Source: Cyanobium usitatum str. Tous (GTDB lineage: Bacteria; Cyanobacteriota; Cyanobacteriia; PCC-6307; Cyanobiaceae). From it: DNA of 64,000 nt. The notes below the pieces were generated by a model. That model made no database searches, was not told the origin of the DNA, and was given only the letters and a program-made list of their open reading frames with translations. The translations under genes and the position numbers were made by a program. The stretch is taken from assembly GCF_963920485.1 (NCBI RefSeq), contig NZ_OY986431.1, positions 434,001-498,000 on the forward strand, written 5' to 3'. Below are positions 2,381 to 9,629 of this stretch, one piece after another; the first letter of the stretch is position 1; each line of letters starts with the position of its first letter.

Positions 2381-2800
2381 ATGGAATCCTTGATTGATGA
2401 AAGATATAGGTTGATGTTGTTAGAGCATTATCTTGAGAATCCAAAGCAGGCAATGGGTTCTGGAGGATCCAGCAAGTGGATGTTCTGTTGCCCCTTCTGC
2501 GGACCACTGGGACGCTCTGAATCCAAGAGAAGGGAGCGTAAGGCAGCACTGCTTTGGAATCAGGCACAGCACTCCTGGGTCTTCTACTGTGCCAAGAAGG
2601 GGTGTGTGGAGTGTATGAACGGAAAGACCTTTGGCAATCTCATTAGTGCTCTCAATCCTTACCTAGGAGAGGCATATAGGCGTGAGAGGTGGCATTCGGG
2701 TACAACGGGCAAGGGACACAACTGCAGGGCACCAGACCGCCTTGTAGGCATCTCTACAGCGTCTTATGGATCAAGTAGGTCCAGAAGTGCCCCTGATTGA
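2381..2800 (+). CDS. zinc-ribbon protein, primase-like N-terminus
   Basis: 139-residue protein with a clear zinc-ribbon: CCPFCGPLGR near residues 36-45 and a second knuckle FYCAKKGCVEC near residues 69-79. The spacing and surrounding residues (LLWNQAQHSWVFYC) recall the CHC2-type zinc finger of DNA primases and phage primase fragments. The downstream TOPRIM catalytic domain is absent, so this is either a truncated primase or a stand-alone DNA-binding ribbon. The C-terminus (STASYGSSRSRSAPD) overlaps a convergent small gene at 2764-2940. It lies downstream of the 21-base repeats. Confidence 0.55.
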   Translation: MESLIDERYRLMLLEHYLENPKQAMGSGGSSKWMFCCPFCGPLGRSESKRRERKAALLWNQAQHSWVFYCAKKGCVECMNGKTFGNLISALNPYLGEAYRRERWHSGTTGKGHNCRAPDRLVGISTASYGSSRSRSAPD

Positions 2801-2940
2801 TCCACCAGGCGGTGACGCTTACCTGTGCTTCGTGCCCGTTGTTGGGCAGTTCGGAAGGCATCAGCGGCATTGTGCTTCTCCTGGAATCGCTGCCATTTGC
2901 CGAACTGATCCTGCCACTGAATAATAATGCGAACGCCCAC
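2764..2940 (-). CDS. conserved-looking small basic protein, 58 aa
   Basis: Short gene with GTG start at 2940 and TAA stop at 2764-2766. The protein begins MGVRIIIQWQDQFGKW and ends RHRLVDQSGALLDLLDP. The composition, aromatic/basic core and neat hydrophobic end look like a genuine compact domain; I have the impression of similar short proteins in picocyanobacteria but cannot confirm it. It overlaps the tail of the zinc-ribbon gene by 37 bases, end to end. No clear ribosome binding site is seen upstream, which lowers confidence in the start. Confidence 0.55.
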   Translation of the reverse strand: MGVRIIIQWQDQFGKWQRFQEKHNAADAFRTAQQRARSTGKRHRLVDQSGALLDLLDP

Positions 2941-2980
2941 AGGGTGAATAAATATCTGTGAGTTTATTCTATCCGTAATT

Positions 2981-3412
2981 TTGACTGACAGAAGGCAGGA
3001 CCATATTTGGAAAACAGTACAGGCAGTTCTCAGAGAGCAGCGGTATCAAACCAGACTTGCTCTCCTTGAGGATTTGTCCTTTTATGTCTTTCGCACAGAC
3101 ACCAATGCAGTCCTGGCAAGTGGCATTCAAGGGTTTGAAGCAGCAAAGTCAAAAGCAAATGATCTTCGCAAGCAAAATGGATTGAAGTGGGACCAGGTGA
3201 AGTTCAAGGCAGAGCGTGGGAGGCAATCCAGTATTCCTGGTTCAGCAGCAGCATCAAGGCAACCATTTGGTGTGAGTCGTGATGGAAGAACCTTTGCAAA
3301 TGGTTCCGGAGAAACCAGCAGTGTTGATTACGCCAAACGCTACAACCCATCAAAGGGGCGTCGGTTCAGGGGGTATACGGATGCCCAGGGGAACTACCAC
3401 GATATTGATTAA
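2981..3412 (+). CDS. hypothetical island protein, 143 aa
   Basis: Soluble, basic protein with a TTG start. The N-terminal 60 residues look like a small mixed domain (DLSFYVFRTDTNAVLASG, then EAAKSKANDLRKQNGLKW). The C-terminal half is low-complexity, rich in Ser/Gly/Arg and probably disordered (GSAAASRQPFGVSRDG; KGRRFRGYTDAQGNYHDID). No family recognised. It ends just before the remnant of the annealing-protein gene and IS copy 2. Confidence 0.5.
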   Translation: MTDRRQDHIWKTVQAVLREQRYQTRLALLEDLSFYVFRTDTNAVLASGIQGFEAAKSKANDLRKQNGLKWDQVKFKAERGRQSSIPGSAAASRQPFGVSRDGRTFANGSGETSSVDYAKRYNPSKGRRFRGYTDAQGNYHDID

Positions 3413-3523: not shown

Positions 3524-4030
3524 ATGCGTCGTTACAGCGAGGCTGTAAAGGCTGACGTGAGGAGGCGAATGAGCCCACCGCAGCGGCAAAGCGTGGCCCA
3601 GATCTCCGAGGAGCTGGGCATTCACGTGGTGACCCTTTACAACTGGAGGAAGGCATGGCGGTTGCAGGGAGAGGTGGTGCCGGCATCCGAGAAGGAACCA
3701 GAGGGCTGGAGCGCTGCCGATAAGTTCACGGTGGTGATGGAGACGGCTGGCTTGAACGCCACCGAACTCAGTGCCTACTGCCGAGAGCGAGGCCTGTTTC
3801 CTGAGCAGGTGGAGCGTTGGCGGCAGGCGGCCCAGGATGCCAATGAAAAGCCAGTGCTGACCTTGAAAGAGCAGAAGGAGCTGGAAAAGCTCCGCGCCCA
3901 GGACCAACGGGAGATCAAAGCCCTCAAGAAGGAGCTGCAGCGCAAAGAGAAGGCCATGGCGGAGATGGCGGCCCTGCTGGTGCTGCGAAAAAAGTGGGAA
4001 GCCTTCTGTTCGGAGGACGCGGAAGGCTGA
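3524..4030 (+). CDS. IS3-family transposase OrfA
   Basis: 168-residue HTH protein, the DNA-binding half of the transposase; same domain plan as copy 1 (MRRYSEAVKADVRRRM, then AYCRERGLFPEQVERW, then a Lys/Glu-rich helix). It ends in VLRKKWEAFCSEDAEG. Codons CGA AAA AAG at 3986-3994 form the A AAA AAG heptamer at 3988-3994, exactly in the register needed for -1 slippage into orfB. Confidence 0.9.
   Translation: MRRYSEAVKADVRRRMSPPQRQSVAQISEELGIHVVTLYNWRKAWRLQGEVVPASEKEPEGWSAADKFTVVMETAGLNATELSAYCRERGLFPEQVERWRQAAQDANEKPVLTLKEQKELEKLRAQDQREIKALKKELQRKEKAMAEMAALLVLRKKWEAFCSEDAEG
3988..3994 (+). promoter_or_regulatory. -1 ribosomal frameshift site (A AAA AAG)
   Basis: Six A followed by G in the reading register X-XXY-YYZ of orfA. 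IS3-family elements are known to make the OrfAB transposase by -1 slippage on this heptamer. The orfB frame (frame 1) is -1 relative to orfA (frame 2) and is open from here to 5115. The same heptamer is present in copy 1 (453-459, minus). Confidence 0.85.
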
Positions 4031-5115
4031 CCAGCGCCGCTCACAGGAAGAAGGCCATCGAGCTGATCAGCGAGGCACATGCCGCTGGCGCGGGTTTGGT
4101 GCGTGCCTGCAGCGAGATCGGGATCTCTCTGCGCACCCTCAAGCGTTGGCGTAAGGCCTGTCTCGGTGATGATGACGGCCACGATCGCCGTAAAGGCAGT
4201 CCCCGTCTGGTTTCCCACCGACTGAGTGAAGAGGAGCGCCAACGCATCCTGCTCACCTGCAACCAGGCGGAGTACGCCTCTCTGCCGCCAGGGCAGATCG
4301 TGCCAGCCCTGGCCGATCAGGGGCTGTACATCGGCTCAGAGAGCAGCTTCTACCGGGTGCTCCATGCCCACGGCCAGGTTCACCGGCGCGGTCGAGCACG
4401 GCCACCACAGGAAACAAGAGCCGTGCCAAGGCTGAGAGCCGCAGGAGCGAACCAGGTTTGGAGCTGGGACATCACCTATTTGCCCACAACCGTGCGTGGG
4501 ATCTGGCTGTACCTCTACCTGGTGATCGACGTCTGGAGCCGCAAGGTCGTGGCCTGGGATGTGGATGAGCGCGAGGATCCAGCCATTGCAGCGGATCTGG
4601 TGAGTAGGGCTTGCCTGAGAGAACGGATCAGCAAAGGCAGGAAGCACCCCCTGGTTCTCCATGCCGACAACGGCAACGCCATGCGTGCGGCCACGCTGGA
4701 AAGCAGGCTGGAGGAACTGGGCGTCCTCAGATCCTTCTCCAGGCCACGGGTGTCGAACGACAACCCGTACTCGGAATCGCTGTTCAGAACGGTGAAGTAT
4801 CGGCCTGATTACCCCCGCAAGCCATTTGCCTCCAAAGAGCAGGCTTGTCAGTGGGTGGCTGCGTTCGTCGATTGGTACAACCACCAACACCGCCACAGCG
4901 GCATCAAATTCGTGACGCCCCAGCAACGTCACAATGGCCAGGCTGTGGAGATCAGCCGCCATCGCGGTGTCGTCTACGAACGAGCCAGACAGCTCAATCC
5001 AAGGAGATGGTCACGATCAACCAGGTGCTGGCGTCAACCGGAGGTGGTTTGGATCAATCAGCCGCCAGATGAACTCGATGAACCAGGGCAGCTACCGTTG
5101 ATGCAGGCGGCCTGA
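3994..5115 (+). CDS. IS3-family transposase OrfB (DDE recombinase)
   Basis: Catalytic part of the transposase, 373 residues. An HTH-like N-terminal segment (LRTLKRWRKACLGDD) is followed by the rve/DDE core. The first Asp is in VWSWDITYLP, the second in LHADNGNAMR, and the Glu in NPYSESLFRTVKYRP; the conserved end WYNHQHRHSGIKFVTP is intact. It has no independent strong start and is most likely translated only as an OrfAB fusion. No internal stops or frameshifts, so the element could be active. Confidence 0.9.
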   Translation: MGSLLFGGRGRLTSAAHRKKAIELISEAHAAGAGLVRACSEIGISLRTLKRWRKACLGDDDGHDRRKGSPRLVSHRLSEEERQRILLTCNQAEYASLPPGQIVPALADQGLYIGSESSFYRVLHAHGQVHRRGRARPPQETRAVPRLRAAGANQVWSWDITYLPTTVRGIWLYLYLVIDVWSRKVVAWDVDEREDPAIAADLVSRACLRERISKGRKHPLVLHADNGNAMRAATLESRLEELGVLRSFSRPRVSNDNPYSESLFRTVKYRPDYPRKPFASKEQACQWVAAFVDWYNHQHRHSGIKFVTPQQRHNGQAVEISRHRGVVYERARQLNPRRWSRSTRCWRQPEVVWINQPPDELDEPGQLPLMQAA

Positions 5116-5163
5116 AAGGCAGCCCAGGAGTGACACCTTTCCTGAAAGTCACCGACCCCGTCA

Positions 5164-5297
5164 ATGCTGTCGCCCTCCTCAGGCAGGAGGAAGCAGCAAC
5201 CTCAGCAGCAGGCGCCTGGGACTTTGATTCAAGGGGTTCCGATGCCACCGCTGAGTAATGAAGCAGATCTCCATCAGCGTTCGGGATGGTTAAACAT
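5164..5297 (-). pseudogene. C-terminal fragment of Rad52-like gene, right of IS
   Basis: Minus-strand translation gives ASEPLESKSQAPAAEV and ASSCLRRATALT, the same sequence as the C-terminal third of the intact gene at 7280-7699. DNA identity with 7312-7445 is about 80 percent by hand count over 134 bases. Homology stops at about 5297, immediately before the RTX gene stop codon. The N-terminal two thirds of this copy are missing, apparently replaced by the RTX gene. Confidence 0.75.
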
Positions 5298-5299
5298 CC

Positions 5300-7123
5300 T
5301 CAAACAATTGCCAAGTTGGTCAGTGCCCCTGAGTAACCAGTGATATCGATGATTGCATCGGTGGTTGAGGAGTAACCAGCAGTGCCGTTATTAAGAGCAA
5401 GGAAGGTTCTAGTTGCTGGTTCGCTAACATATGTGAAAGTAGCGGCACCATTACTCGCGAAATTGGTGGGAGTAAGCACTGCCGCAATTCCCTCTTGCGT
5501 TAATGATGAGACGGCTCCAAGTTCTCTGAGGTTTGTGGCACTCACAGCACGAGGACCATCAATCCGGTCGGTGCCGATCACAAGGTCAGTGATGCGGTCG
5601 TAACCAGGAGTTCCAGCGGTACCCAGTAGCGAATCGGTGAGTGCATAGCGGAAGGTGTCTGTGCCACCTCCCCCTGTAAGGACATCAGCGCCCCTGCCCC
5701 CAATCAGGGTGTCGTTGCCCCCTTCCCCAAGCAGGGTGTCATTGCCTGCCAGACCAGAGAGGGTGTTATTACCACTGTTGCCGGTGATGATGTTGGCAAG
5801 TGCATTGCCGGTGCCTTTCACTTTGGCATTGCCCGTGAGGGTGAGGTTGCGGTACTGACTTGCAAGTTTTGTGGTGGATCCGGTAATGAAGGTATCGGCA
5901 AAGCGGTTGGAGAAGGAAGCAAGGTCATTACCTGCGGCATCCTGAACAACCGCTGTGGTCTGGTTGTTTGCAGGATCCGTGTAGGAAACCCGTAGGTTTA
6001 CATTGCTTGCTGGAGCGGTTCCTGTGAGGGTAAGGATGAGTTTAGAGGGGTCGTTCTGATCCTGTGTGACGCCGCTGATTGTACGGTTTGTTGCCCGATT
6101 TTTTGAATTAATTGTTGCTACCGCAAAGCTAGAAGGCAGGACACCTGTGGCACCAACAGTTTCAGAGAATTTAAGGGCAACCGTTGTTCCCTGAGTGCTG
6201 ATGCTGGAGATAGTGGGTGGGGTGACATCTTCTGCATCCAGAACAGAATCAAGAAACGCAATTTTTTCAATACTTTGAGTTGTCAATGTATGGGTTCCAA
6301 TCTTTATTGTCGCTGCTCCTCTTGACCCGATGGTTACATCGGCGTCTGCTCTTTTGTAAAAAATATTCAAAACATCATTACCTTCTCCTCCGTTAAATTG
6401 ATCTGTACCAGTTAACCAAATAAACTGATCGTCATTTGCAGTTCCCTGCCAACTCTGAAAACCGCCACTATTGTCAACTATGATGCTAGAATATAATGGT
6501 TGAGTAAATGACTTGTCGCCATCATTAAAAGCGGCAAGTTCAACATCAACAAGTACAATTGTTGCGCCTTCGTGAGTGAAGGAGTTGAATCCTTGAGAGT
6601 TTACATTAAAAACCGCTTCGCTTAGGTTGCTTGAAATGCTAATGCTGTCATTGCCAGCGCCTCCACTGAAAATCTCAAAACCAGTCAGATATACAAATAA
6701 GTCATCAGACTCAGTTCCGTAGAATGTTTGCCAACCACCACTGTTATCGGCAATTATATTTCTAGTTGACGGGCGAGCGATGTCTAGCGAACGATCCGAG
6801 AAATGAATTGTCTCAACGCTAGCAAGGGTTAACTCATCACCATTCAATAGTCTGATATTGGTGATTCCTTGAGAATTAGTGGTGATTGTGACATCACCGG
6901 ATTGGATTCCGGATAGGTATGCGAAATCGAGTCCTGCTGCTCCATAAAATATATCCGTGCCACCTGCCCAATAAAAGTCATCTTCAGTCTCTGTGCCTAT
7001 CCATGTGACCCATCCACCAGGAGCATTGTCAATTATTTGATTGCGGGACGCACTGTTAATAATGCTCATTGCCACTGGATGGGGGTAGGTAGCATGTACA
7101 ACGCCTAAGTGGCGCAATTTCAT
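5300..7123 (-). CDS. RTX / SwmB-repeat secreted calcium-binding protein
   Basis: Up to 607 residues; a start at 7069 (MSIINSASRNQIID) is also possible. Residues about 25-300 hold three repeats of about 90 residues, each opening with an IIxDNSGGW-like motif and containing GTESDDLFVYLTG and GGAGND-type turns. Residues about 300-420 form a domain (VALKFSETVGATG; VSYTDPANNQTTAVVQDAAG) like the TIGR02059 repeat of SwmB-type cyanobacterial cell-surface proteins. Residues about 440-500 are RTX nonapeptides (GNNTLSGLAGNDTLLGEGG) that bind calcium and mark type I secretion. The C-terminus (TFLALNNGTAGYSSTTDAI) is a module common in cyanobacterial RTX proteins. There is no signal peptide, as expected for type I export. 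Function is probably surface or extracellular; no secretion genes are adjacent. It is bracketed by two diverged copies of the annealing-gene 3' end. Confidence 0.8.
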   Translation of the reverse strand: MKLRHLGVVHATYPHPVAMSIINSASRNQIIDNAPGGWVTWIGTETEDDFYWAGGTDIFYGAAGLDFAYLSGIQSGDVTITTNSQGITNIRLLNGDELTLASVETIHFSDRSLDIARPSTRNIIADNSGGWQTFYGTESDDLFVYLTGFEIFSGGAGNDSISISSNLSEAVFNVNSQGFNSFTHEGATIVLVDVELAAFNDGDKSFTQPLYSSIIVDNSGGFQSWQGTANDDQFIWLTGTDQFNGGEGNDVLNIFYKRADADVTIGSRGAATIKIGTHTLTTQSIEKIAFLDSVLDAEDVTPPTISSISTQGTTVALKFSETVGATGVLPSSFAVATINSKNRATNRTISGVTQDQNDPSKLILTLTGTAPASNVNLRVSYTDPANNQTTAVVQDAAGNDLASFSNRFADTFITGSTTKLASQYRNLTLTGNAKVKGTGNALANIITGNSGNNTLSGLAGNDTLLGEGGNDTLIGGRGADVLTGGGGTDTFRYALTDSLLGTAGTPGYDRITDLVIGTDRIDGPRAVSATNLRELGAVSSLTQEGIAAVLTPTNFASNGAATFTYVSEPATRTFLALNNGTAGYSSTTDAIIDITGYSGALTNLAIV

Positions 7124-7279: not shown

Positions 7280-7699
7280 TTAACTCCACAACTCCAACCC
7301 AAGACCCGCCAGTGCCGCCGCCCTTCTCAAGCAGGAACTGGCAGCAACCTCAGCAGCAGGTGCCTGTGACTTGGATTCCAACGGTTCCGAAGCGACCGCT
7401 GAGTAGTGGAGCAGGTCTCCATCGGCGGTAGGGATGGTCAGACGCCCAGTGACAACAACAGCACCACCAACCTCCTGAACTGACTGAACCTCCCAGCACC
7501 ACCCAGGGGCACGATGGTGAAGGTGGCGGGCAATGGTGTTCCAGGGGCAGTAGGTCAGGGTTGCTGTGCCCTGCTTTCTGGTCTTGAGGTGCCGTGGGTC
7601 AATAGGGCGGGACAAGTCCGCCAAGGTTTCGGCAGTGGGGCGAAGGGAGAACTTGATGGCAGTGGTTGCCTGAGTTCCGTTGCTGGATGTCTTGAGCAT
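7280..7699 (-). CDS. Rad52/DdrA-like single-strand annealing protein
   Basis: 139 residues. The pattern FSLRPTAETLADLS, then KQGTATLTYCPWNTIARHL, then HHRAPGWCWEVQSV, then VVVTGRLTIPTADGDLLHYS and a C-terminal AAEVAASSCLRRAAALAGLG is the order of elements seen in DdrA/Rad52-type phage annealing proteins, where the last helix is usually AxSxAxKRAAxxFGLG. The family anneals complementary single strands in phage-type recombination. Assignment is by pattern only and the substrate is unproven. It has a good promoter at 7732-7760. A broken second copy lies at 3431-3453 plus 5164-5297. Confidence 0.6.
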   Translation of the reverse strand: MLKTSSNGTQATTAIKFSLRPTAETLADLSRPIDPRHLKTRKQGTATLTYCPWNTIARHLHHRAPGWCWEVQSVQEVGGAVVVTGRLTIPTADGDLLHYSAVASEPLESKSQAPAAEVAASSCLRRAAALAGLGLELWS

Positions 7700-7731
7700 T
7701 TAATTGACTCTCTGTGGAGTTCAGTGCTTAG

Positions 7732-7760
7732 AGTATAGCATATTACGCTGGTGCTGTGAA
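7732..7760 (-). promoter_or_regulatory. sigma70-type promoter for Rad52-like gene
   Basis: On the minus strand TTCACA (7755-7760), a 17-base spacer and TATACT (7732-7737), preceded by TGC giving an extended -10 (TGCTATACT). The expected transcription start is about 25 bases before the ATG at 7699. The same TGCTATxxT motif recurs in front of two other island operons. Confidence 0.6.
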
Positions 7761-7820
7761 GTTATTTGTAGGGCAGACCTGCTCTTGACGACAATGGTTT
7801 CCACCTCTTGAGCACCTTGG

Positions 7821-8081
7821 GTGGATTGCTCCGCTCTCCCGCTACTGGATGCCCTGGATCACTTCCTCTTTCGGATGGATGAGGAACCAGAGTTGGGGCG
7901 TGAGTTCTATGCCGCCACCACCCCAGAGGAGATGGTCGCCTTAGCGGAGCACTGCGGGATTTTGATTGACGCTGATGATTTCCGTGCCCTTCTGAGAAGT
8001 GGCAGCACTGAGTTTTGGGTTGTTGGTGGAGAGGTGGGTGCCAATCCCATTGCCCATCTACAGCAGGTCTTTGGCGTCTAA
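7821..8081 (+). CDS. Nif11-domain protein
   Basis: 86 residues, GTG start. Residues 10-55 match the Nif11 domain: ALDHFLFRMDEEPELGREF, then AATTPEEMVALAEHCG, then IDADDFRALL. Nif11 domains serve either as small unknown proteins beside nif genes or as leader peptides of modified peptides. Here the tail WVVGGEVGANPIAHLQQVFGV has a double glycine but no Cys and no Ser/Thr after it, so a lanthipeptide core is unlikely. No modification enzyme or exporter is nearby. It is transcribed towards the convergent 127-aa gene. Confidence 0.65.
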   Translation: MDCSALPLLDALDHFLFRMDEEPELGREFYAATTPEEMVALAEHCGILIDADDFRALLRSGSTEFWVVGGEVGANPIAHLQQVFGV

Positions 8082-8097: not shown

Positions 8098-8481
8098 TCA
8101 GGTCTCCTGGGTCAAACATAGATAAGTGCTCACAAGCGGTTGTGCCCTCCCATCCCGTTGTGCCTGACCCTGAAGACCCTTGATGGCATCCCGAACTTCT
8201 GAGTCGTATTCCCAACTGGTTCGTGACCGCTGCTTGAGAACCCAACCACCAGGGGCACGAACACCAAAGCGGAGTTCGGCATCGCCAAAGGTGGCAAGCA
8301 GTTCAGCGTCAATCACCTGTCTCTCCTGCTCCAGGGTCTTGATGGTGCCCGTGACCTCTACCCGCCGCTGAATCAGTTGGTCGGCATTGAGGTCTGCCAG
8401 ATGGGGGAATGGGTCTGGGCGTTCAGGTGGCAGGGTCTTGAGAACCCTCAGAAGATCAGATGGGGAGATTGGTGGAGTCAT
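8098..8481 (-). CDS. phage-module-type hypothetical protein, 127 aa
   Basis: Soluble protein with a helical middle (RVEVTGTIKTLEQERQVID, AELLATFG) followed by RAPGGWVLKQRSRTSWEYDS. I have the impression that this layout (LExxRQxIDAEL, then GGWxLKxRxRxSW) recurs in phage and island recombination modules of cyanobacteria, but the function is unknown. Its start overlaps the stop of the upstream ribbon-helix-helix gene (ATGA), so the two are co-translated. It lies beside the annealing-protein gene. Confidence 0.55.
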   Translation of the reverse strand: MTPPISPSDLLRVLKTLPPERPDPFPHLADLNADQLIQRRVEVTGTIKTLEQERQVIDAELLATFGDAELRFGVRAPGGWVLKQRSRTSWEYDSEVRDAIKGLQGQAQRDGRAQPLVSTYLCLTQET

Positions 8482-8675
8482 CAGTCATTTTTGATTGCAC
8501 CCTCATTCACCAATCGGTTGTAGTGGCACTGGATGGCGTCCTCCACGATGGAAGCGAGGGTGATGGATTGATTGGTGCGTTGGCGGTGATGCTGGATTTG
8601 GGAAACCAGTTTCATCGTCTCCTCACTGAGGCGGATGCCGAACTGCTTAGGAGCATCGGGATGGTCGTATGCCAT
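8481..8675 (-). CDS. small ribbon-helix-helix-like protein
   Basis: 64 residues from the ATG at 8675 (MAYDHPDAPKQFGIRLSEET); an upstream GTG at 8723 would add 16 residues with no family character. The segment FGIRLSEETMKLVSQIQ, then ITLASIVEDAIQCHYNRL, has the beta-strand plus two-helix pattern of Arc/CopG-type repressors. It probably binds DNA, perhaps regulating this operon. It overlaps the 127-aa gene by four bases and shares a leader with the operon at 8873-9220. Confidence 0.5.
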   Translation of the reverse strand: MAYDHPDAPKQFGIRLSEETMKLVSQIQHHRQRTNQSITLASIVEDAIQCHYNRLVNEGAIKND

Positions 8676-8745
8676 TGCTGCTGGGGCGAGTGAGTGAAGT
8701 GTGGCAGGGGATTCCGCCAGCACCAGCAGGAACAGGGAAGCGCAT
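8647..8745 (-). CDS. possible 32-codon leader ORF
   Basis: This is the first ATG after the conserved leader element (ATG at 8745, ten bases past AGAGG). It opens a frame beginning MRFPVPAGAGGIPCHTS and ending in TAA at 8647, overlapping the start of the ribbon-helix-helix gene in another frame. In the sister leader at 9227-9309 the equivalent ATG starts the main gene. It could be a translated attenuator or uORF, or chance. Confidence 0.25.
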   Translation of the reverse strand: MRFPVPAGAGGIPCHTSLTRPSSNGIRPSRCS

Positions 8746-8750
8746 CGGAT

Positions 8751-8834
8751 GGAACCTCTGTGGGTTTCTGTGAAAAGGGTTGGAGGGGCGAACTGCTTTG
8801 AGTTTCTTGCCCCTCAACACTGAAATTATAGCAT
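8751..8834 (-). promoter_or_regulatory. extended -10 promoter and hairpin leader, copy 1
   Basis: On the minus strand TGCTATAAT (8825-8833) is followed by TTGAGGGGCAAG, a complementary CGCCCCTC about 18 bases on (hairpin), and then ACCCACAGAGGTTC. The same order and much of the sequence recur at 9227-9309. No -35 is visible at the right distance, consistent with an extended -10 promoter. The AGAGG could be the ribosome binding site. Confidence 0.6.
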
Positions 8835-8872
8835 TAAAGCAGCGGGATGCGGTGCCCGATGCTCAAAAGCAA

Positions 8873-9220
8873 TCAGACGGCAACCAGTTCAGGCACCTTC
8901 TGCGATGCTGCCACCTCCAGAGCAACCGCATCCAGCACCTGATCGGCAACTGAGCGGTGGGTAGTGGGGGTCAGATCACCAAAACGGGCAGTGAGTGCCT
9001 GTGAGAACAGATTCGTGAATTCAGTGCTGATCGTGGCGGAAAGCAGGTCAGCAGCAAACGCCCAGTGCTGAATCATTGAGGCAGCACTGAGGTTTCCGCC
9101 CGCAGCAGCATCAGCAGAATCCTGTTCCCACTGGCAGACCTGGTTGTGCAGGGCGGCAACCATTACGCCCTGGGCGGCGTTGAGGGTCGCAAGGTCAATG
9201 GTGGAGAAGTCGGTTGGCAT
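8873..9220 (-). CDS. hypothetical island protein, 115 aa
   Basis: The start is taken at the ATG at 9220 (MPTDFSTIDLATLNAAQ), which lies seven bases after the AGAGG of the conserved leader; the longer frame to 9349 runs through the promoter. The protein is helical and Ala-rich (LHNQVCQWEQDSADAAAGG; AFAADLLSATISTEF). No family recognised. It is the first gene transcribed leftwards opposite the Cro/CI-like regulator gene. Confidence 0.5.
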   Translation of the reverse strand: MPTDFSTIDLATLNAAQGVMVAALHNQVCQWEQDSADAAAGGNLSAASMIQHWAFAADLLSATISTEFTNLFSQALTARFGDLTPTTHRSVADQVLDAVALEVAASQKVPELVAV

Positions 9221-9226
9221 TGGTCT

Positions 9227-9309
9227 GAACCTCTGTGGGTTGCTGGTGAGTGGGTTGAGAGGGCGGGTTTCTAATGAACCTCTTGCCCTCAACGCAGTAA
9301 TCATAGCAC
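9227..9309 (-). promoter_or_regulatory. extended -10 promoter and hairpin leader, copy 2
   Basis: TGCTATGAT (minus strand, 9300-9308), then GTTGAGGGCAAGAGG, a complementary GCCCTCTCAA, and finally AACCCACAGAGGTTC just before the ATG at 9220. The hairpin stem is TTGAGGGC paired with GCCCTCTCAA. It closely parallels the leader at 8751-8834. Confidence 0.6.
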
Positions 9310-9377
9310 GAAACACTGGGTCTGTACTCTTGAGCACTGCTTTGCCCATTCAGGGTGCTTGAGGTATTGTGCTTCTT

Positions 9378-9629
9378 ATGGCAAAGCAAGTTCGTCTGAC
9401 ACTCGCCAAGGCACTCGCCAAGGCAAATCTGCGTAGGGCAGAGGCGGGTGAGAAGGCAATCACAATGAATGGTCTGGCAGTGGCGGCAGGAGTGGCAGCA
9501 ACCACGATCACCCGACTGGCACGGAACGATCAGAAAGCGGCATCAGCACTTTCCTTGGATCTGGCGGGGAAGGTGGTGACTGTGTTGGATTGTGGGATAG
9601 AGGATCTTTTGGAGGTTGTAGAAGATTGA
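9378..9629 (+). CDS. Cro/CI-type HTH regulator
   Basis: 83 residues from the ATG at 9378 (MAKQVRLTLAKALAKANLR); an ATG nine bases upstream is an alternative. The segment AITMNGLAVAAGVAATTITRL followed by LSLDLAGKVVTVLDCGIEDLL is the Xre/Cro HTH fold with its conserved last helix. It is divergent from the leader-bearing operon at 8873-9309, a layout typical of a phage or satellite repressor switch. A weak promoter may be TTGCCC with TATTGT 17 bases on, leaving almost no leader. Confidence 0.7.
   Translation: MAKQVRLTLAKALAKANLRRAEAGEKAITMNGLAVAAGVAATTITRLARNDQKAASALSLDLAGKVVTVLDCGIEDLLEVVED

Follow-up and report, generated by a model that had tools for sequence, protein, structure and literature searches.

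Twin-hairpin leaders with covarying stems precede several operons of a mobile-looking gene island in Cyanobium usitatum

Genes and setting of the island

The window, i.e. the whole stretch of DNA analyzed here, comprises 64,000 nucleotides of Cyanobium usitatum str. Tous (NZ_OY986431.1, positions 434,001 to 498,000), and coordinates refer to it unless another locus is named. It contains a mobile-looking gene island of freshwater Synechococcus/Cyanobium-type bacteria with the following genes and leaders.

7280-7699, minus strand: gene of a Sak/DUF1071-like single-strand annealing protein (SSAP); Pfam SSAP_Sak 0.0063 and PHROG single strand annealing 0.0022, both weak
about 7693-7740, minus strand: leader 3, before the SSAP gene, revealed by a covariance model match at 7693-7762
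7821-8081, plus strand: gene of a Nif11-like small protein; Pfam Nif11 2e-4, below the curated cut-off
8098-8481, minus strand: putative 127-aa protein
8481-8675, minus strand: 64-aa ribbon-helix-helix (RHH)-like protein, assigned by sequence pattern only; no Shine-Dalgarno (SD) segment of its own apparent
8647-8745, minus strand: 32-codon short ORF (MRFPVPAGAGGIPCHT...), overlapping the start of the RHH-like gene; frame conserved across genera
8739-8834, minus strand: leader 1
8873-9220, minus strand: 115-aa protein of no known family, a predicted helical hairpin
9214-9309, minus strand: leader 2, with the same layout as leader 1
9369-9629, plus strand: Xre/HTH_26 regulator gene, divergent from the leaders; Pfam HTH_26 1.5e-5; likely start ATG at 9378

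The order of the core module is Xre, 115-aa, (71-aa), short ORF, RHH-like, 127-aa, (Nif11-like, on the opposite strand) and SSAP. The helical hairpin of the 115-aa protein was predicted with a mean pLDDT of 79. Structure searches with the models of the 115-aa and 127-aa proteins returned nothing at E ≤ 0.001, and a resemblance to helical-filament proteins was set aside. The RHH-like protein had no match in Pfam, PHROGs or PDB.

The initial annotation had called the module phage-like, and this description was not supported. Neither the 115-aa protein nor the SSAP matched any of 50,697 phage records, the 115-aa and 127-aa proteins had no relative in IMG/VR, where relatives of the SSAP occurred only at 40-44% identity on three contigs, and no capsid or terminase was found among the names of the neighboring proteins scanned. 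The nearest SSAP records were Picosynechococcus plasmids, and the plasmid relatives carry a DUF1071 annotation. On one such plasmid (L138, NZ_CP016475.1, 155-9460) ArdA, a Gp157-family protein, the DUF1071 SSAP and a cytosine methyltransferase are encoded in a row. This operon was rejected as a homolog of the module, its SSAP alone being related while the other genes and the leaders are not homologous; it is a look-alike in function whose leaders are unrelated. In the same record, a resistance call of 171 bp (‘ACT-82’) looks like an annotation artifact.

In several other genera the module has restriction genes as neighbors, which differ each time: type I HsdR/HsdS (L068, L069, L071, and L072), type IIG/ISP (L073) and other restriction-helicase genes (L067), with Mrr also among the types seen at these loci. 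The module may mark a hotspot or a carrier for restriction systems in picocyanobacteria. Tyrosine-integrase genes lie near the copies L067 and L071. In the window, positions 2381-3412 encode a 139-aa cysteine-rich (zinc-finger-like) and a 143-aa protein; look-alikes of them are found near the module in L068 and L071, and one of the 139-aa protein also in L069. The island probably reaches this region, with an insertion sequence (3524-5115) breaking it up. Between this insertion sequence and an RTX-repeat gene, positions 5156-5455 hold another SSAP fragment, which has diverged (54% identical).

Structure and distribution of the leaders

Leaders 1 and 2 were confirmed at the places and in the order in which they had been annotated, namely extended -10, stem arms, SD segment and ATG (at 8745 after leader 1 and at 9220 after leader 2). 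Common to both are the extended -10, a 5′ stem-loop and a conserved SD segment; the extended -10 is followed by GTTGAGGGGC.../GCCCCTCCAAC and GTTGAGGGC.../GCCCTCTCAAC, then by ACCCACAGAGGTTC and the ATG. The statement that two island operons share a promoter and a leader was correct for these two but fell short in the count, as a third leader, with a promoter and an SD hairpin of the same type, stands before the gene at 7280-7699. Nor had it been noted that both hairpins carry the identical loop and that the promoters have upstream boxes in common. The elements, all on the minus strand, are the following.

7707-7720, minus strand: SD hairpin of leader 3, ACTC[CACAGA]GAGT, without a 5′ stem-loop
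7732-7740, minus strand: extended -10 of leader 3, TGCTATACT
8753-8766, minus strand: SD hairpin of leader 1, AACC[CACAGA]GGTT
8779-8818, minus strand: 5′ stem-loop of leader 1, from covariation and the listing of loops
8791-8804, minus strand: tip hairpin of leader 1, AACT[CAAAGC]AGTT
8825-8833, minus strand: extended -10 of leader 1, TGCTATAAT
8859-8863, minus strand: AGCAT box of the leader 1 promoter
9228-9241, minus strand: SD hairpin of leader 2, AACC[CACAGA]GGTT
9254-9293, minus strand: 5′ stem-loop of leader 2, from covariation and the listing of loops
9266-9280, minus strand: tip hairpin of leader 2, GGTT[CATTAGA]AACC
9300-9308, minus strand: extended -10 of leader 2, TGCTATGAT

The SD segment itself is a short hairpin of the form A-NN-C[CANAGA]G-N′N′-U, a weak one with a stem of only 4 bp, in which the SD lies in the 3′ arm and the loop. 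All 23 distinct sequences of this hairpin were fully paired (100%), although the middle pairs vary between A-U, C-G, and U-A and between C-G, U-A, and U-G. Over the same CANAGA loop the stems AACC/GGTT, ATCC/GGAT, ATTC/GGAT, ACTC/GAGT, ACTC/GGGT, and AATC/GATT were observed, and the hairpin of L068 combines the stem GACT/AGTC with the loop CAGAGA. The 5′ hairpin was 93.5% paired in 17 sequences, and six of its pairs differed on both sides. Between leaders 1 and 2 alone, three of the four tip pairs differ on both sides (AACT/AGTT versus GGTT/AACC), which bears out the initial observation that pairing is kept despite differing letters.

The covariation score was 0.534 for the SD hairpin versus 0.190 in shuffled alignments (0/500) and 0.427 for the 5′ hairpin versus 0.245 (0/500), whereas sliding the partners gave at most 0.14 and 0.18, respectively; the shuffle counts exaggerate the significance, since the sequences are related and independent compensatory events are fewer than the cells. 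For two of the alignments the sequences were picked and trimmed by hand, and a wider, machine-made alignment of 20 leaders agreed with them. Single sequences did not fold significantly better than their shuffles (z of -1.29, -0.43, and -1.12), so that the case for the structure rests on comparison, i.e. on compensatory change. In the alignments the covarying pairs cover the ribosome-binding site, as is characteristic of a translation operator. Without exception the hairpins are on the coding strand, follow the -10 and overlie the SD; in nearly all island copies an ATG comes 1-6 nt after the SD-hairpin motif. A fold that is kept in related strains while its letters change probably reflects a shared translation switch.

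At its tip the 5′ stem-loop repeats the CA(N)AGA/C loop of the SD hairpin, which makes the full leader a twin-hairpin element. In nearly all full-length leaders the tip loop is CA(N1-2)AGA or CANAGC, so that CA(N1-2)AG(A/C) occurs on both hairpins. The tip stem is inverted relative to the SD hairpin in many leaders (GGTT[CANAGA]AACC versus AACC[CANAGA]GGTT), and in L061 the tip hairpin repeats the SD-hairpin pattern letter for letter. Since this upstream copy is not constrained as an SD, the CANAGA loop is probably recognized in its own right. In the 2.66-Mb host genome the pattern ANNCCANAGAGNNTC occurs nine times, seven of them in island leaders; the remaining two occurrences lack a leader context, and the stem of one of them is unable to pair. 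The reversed control pattern does not occur in this genome.

A covariance model built from the 20-leader alignment detected further members in 22 of 400 genomes of the family, spread over 10 of its 59 genera. In 291 genomes of the class convincing matches were found only inside the family. The retrieved loci comprise 62 matches at E ≤ 1. One match outside the family (L139, E 0.0015) showed no such leader by eye and was taken as chance, and the weak matches L075 and L078-L083, with no clear standard SD hairpin, were regarded as either decayed copies or chance. The genes behind the leaders belong to no fewer than four families: the 115-aa gene, the 71-aa gene, the Sak-like SSAP gene, and the RHH-like gene together with the short ORF. 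An Rfam scan of the window matched only a tRNA and returned no family above the gathering score for the leaders. By these comparisons the leader element is an RNA family with covariation support and without an Rfam match.

In the host genome, a single contig, a second island copy (98% over 567 bp) repeats leaders 1 and 2, and a third, decayed occurrence of the leader stretch is located beside a tRNA-Ser gene. At the DNA level the stretch was matched in 7 of 60 related genomes, all of one genus. This recurrence shows that the leaders are not a chance arrangement. Across the two leaders and the 115-aa gene, the window (8742-9309) and the second copy (L004, 6298-6864) are about 98% identical, while identity drops to about 86-91% in the flanks. 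This difference suggests either a recent gene conversion between the two island copies or a transfer of just the segment with the leaders and the 115-aa gene. The decayed copy (L005, 5905-6957) consists of the Xre gene, a remnant of leader 1 and the RHH-like gene; the tRNA-Ser gene at its end is a possible former integration site.

Promoter boxes, the Xre gene and the short ORF

When 49 promoters of the three leader classes were aligned on TGCTAT, an AGCRC box appeared about 30 nt and a CAGY box about 10 nt upstream, even where the upstream DNA was otherwise unrelated. A scan with the sigma-70 consensus listed the promoter of leader 3, at chance frequency, and did not list those of leaders 1 and 2. 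AGCAC/GTGCT half-sites are also present upstream of the Xre gene: 24 upstream regions of this gene, which are related copies, contained 2.08 AGCRC-type half-sites each versus 0.32 in mononucleotide shuffles. The Xre mRNA is likely leaderless, judging by TATTGT-like boxes about 7 nt ahead of its ATG. Because AGCRC boxes stand in the operon promoters and crowd at the Xre promoter, the same operons are likely controlled by a regulator at the DNA level, for which Xre would be the simplest choice. Regulons of Xre repressors in phages and mobile islands combine a divergent Xre gene and a leaderless mRNA with half-sites that are repeated in the promoters under control. The island shares the divergent Xre gene, the likely leaderless mRNA and the half-sites with them, whereas it has no close phage relatives and would add a second, RNA-level layer.

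The 32-codon frame (8745-8647) noticed in the initial annotation proved to be real and conserved as a protein, with the consensus (L/x)(I/V)xAGxGG(I/L)P(C/R)(H/Q). Its core showed 154 synonymous and 141 nonsynonymous codon differences among 14 copies, as compared to 23/236 and 36/239 in the other frames; by this measure the short ORF is under protein-level selection. An extra 71-aa gene precedes it in L004; its end falls directly ahead of the RHH-like start in L069 and about 20 nt short of that start in L067. As a conserved peptide frame of 15-40 aa inside the regulon it is a further unexplained gene. Translational coupling from the short ORF to the RHH-like gene would be the natural reading. 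In E. coli iraD, RNA-binding control is exerted on a short upstream ORF, and translation of the next gene is coupled to it (PMC5574718). The likeness is a short ORF ahead of the next gene, here overlapping its start by about 30 nt in the window, with coupling presumed.

Possible control of the operons and its alternatives

The idea of a coordinated post-transcriptional control element is well supported by comparison (covarying pairs, conserved loops, an SD inside a hairpin and at least four gene families), apart from the phage-like character once attached to it. We consider it somewhat better than an even chance that the leaders act in cis as RNA elements of a single island regulon, in which a trans-acting factor on the CANAGA loops blocks ribosomes. 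Transcription of each operon would start from an extended -10 promoter, with AGCRC and CAGY boxes ahead of it that a DNA-binding regulator could read, the protein of the divergent Xre gene being the best candidate. The RNA would start a few bases from the structured part, in the model 5-9 nt after TGCTATNAT. The short CANAGA-loop hairpin would cover the SD segment, and two of the leaders would expose a further copy of the loop on the 5′ stem-loop, about 40 nt farther upstream. The loops would be recognized by an RNA-binding factor acting in trans, perhaps a dimer and the product of one of the controlled genes; anchored on the 5′ hairpin of leaders 1 and 2, it would stabilize the SD hairpin and keep ribosomes off. 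The operons would then be translated together only at a low factor level, e.g. soon after entry of the island. Through translational coupling, the short ORF behind leader 1 might extend the control to the RHH-like gene that it overlaps. As leader 3 lacks the 5′ hairpin, bridging cannot be general. The 115-aa protein, which accompanies the leaders in most intact copies, is for this reason a candidate, and only a candidate, for the factor.

A rather unlikely alternative, the strongest of those considered, is that the hairpins act in cis without a dedicated factor, by fixing a low translation rate, by shielding the 5′ end from decay or as a temperature-sensitive cover of the SD. This explanation needs no binding factor; a weak hairpin holding the SD in its 3′ arm and loop fits it, and a 5′-terminal stem-loop would suit mRNA protection. 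However, it leaves unexplained why the CANAGA loop is conserved across four gene contexts and also in the upstream hairpin, although it does not serve as an SD there. Control at the DNA level appears less probable still: the elements would be operator or promoter DNA, or a single-stranded DNA hairpin that, like those of plasmid leading regions, works as a promoter early after entry, with the RNA fold a by-product. The conserved AGCRC and CAGY boxes upstream of the -10 are consistent with this, as is an annealing protein with plasmid-borne relatives, next to an ardA gene in the record examined. But stems that vary and stay complementary do not give the constant half-sites which a DNA-binding dimer needs, and the fixed placement of the hairpins (coding strand, after the -10, covering the SD) also speaks against it. 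Targeting of the loops by an antisense RNA of the island or the host is very improbable, since six nucleotides of loop, one of them free to vary, offer little length for base-pairing and the Rfam scan found no RNA family besides the tRNA in the window, even though conserved, accessible loops adjoin the SD. That the leaders are alike merely through recent copying and serve no special function is barely credible: both leaders and the gene between them are 98% identical in two island copies, above their flanks, but compensatory pairs, loops fixed across 10 genera and unrelated downstream genes contradict it.

The preferred reading, a factor acting on the CANAGA loops, has a counterpart in the CsrA/RsmA target leaders (glgC, hcnA, psl type), which have short hairpins, mostly of 4 bp or fewer and with 6-nt loops in the SELEX set, and a fixed loop motif on one hairpin upstream and one over the SD, where a dimer binds and blocks ribosomes (PMC7652899). 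The island leaders likewise have two hairpins with the same loop, one of them overlapping the SD. However, the loop is ANGGAN/GGA there and CANAGA here, AGGA arising only in the GGAT stem variants, and the island leaders are confined to one island family. CsrA (PF02599) had no match in the host genome, while control matches were obtained in 3 of 14 reference genomes. CsrA was rejected as the factor, and membership of the leaders in its target class is excluded by the loop sequence and the absence of CsrA from the host. More tentatively, and with the chances against it, the island family might encode its own RNA-binding regulator that reads CANAGA on twin hairpins, an independent counterpart of CsrA from a new protein family (e.g. 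the 115-aa helical protein) in bacteria without CsrA. If the factor is island-encoded, the system would be a compact new RNA-protein switch that shows how such islands time their genes.

The leader family represents a multi-operon regulon on a mobile-looking, restriction-associated island family. In pLS20-family plasmids one establishment-gene regulatory sequence, EGeRS, is repeated upstream of the ribosome-binding sites of several operons, and EGeRS1-B was reported to be without a regular promoter (PMC8708921). The island resembles these plasmids in having the same regulatory element before several operons of one mobile element; in contrast, sequence, structure and host are different, and the island leaders have a conserved extended -10.
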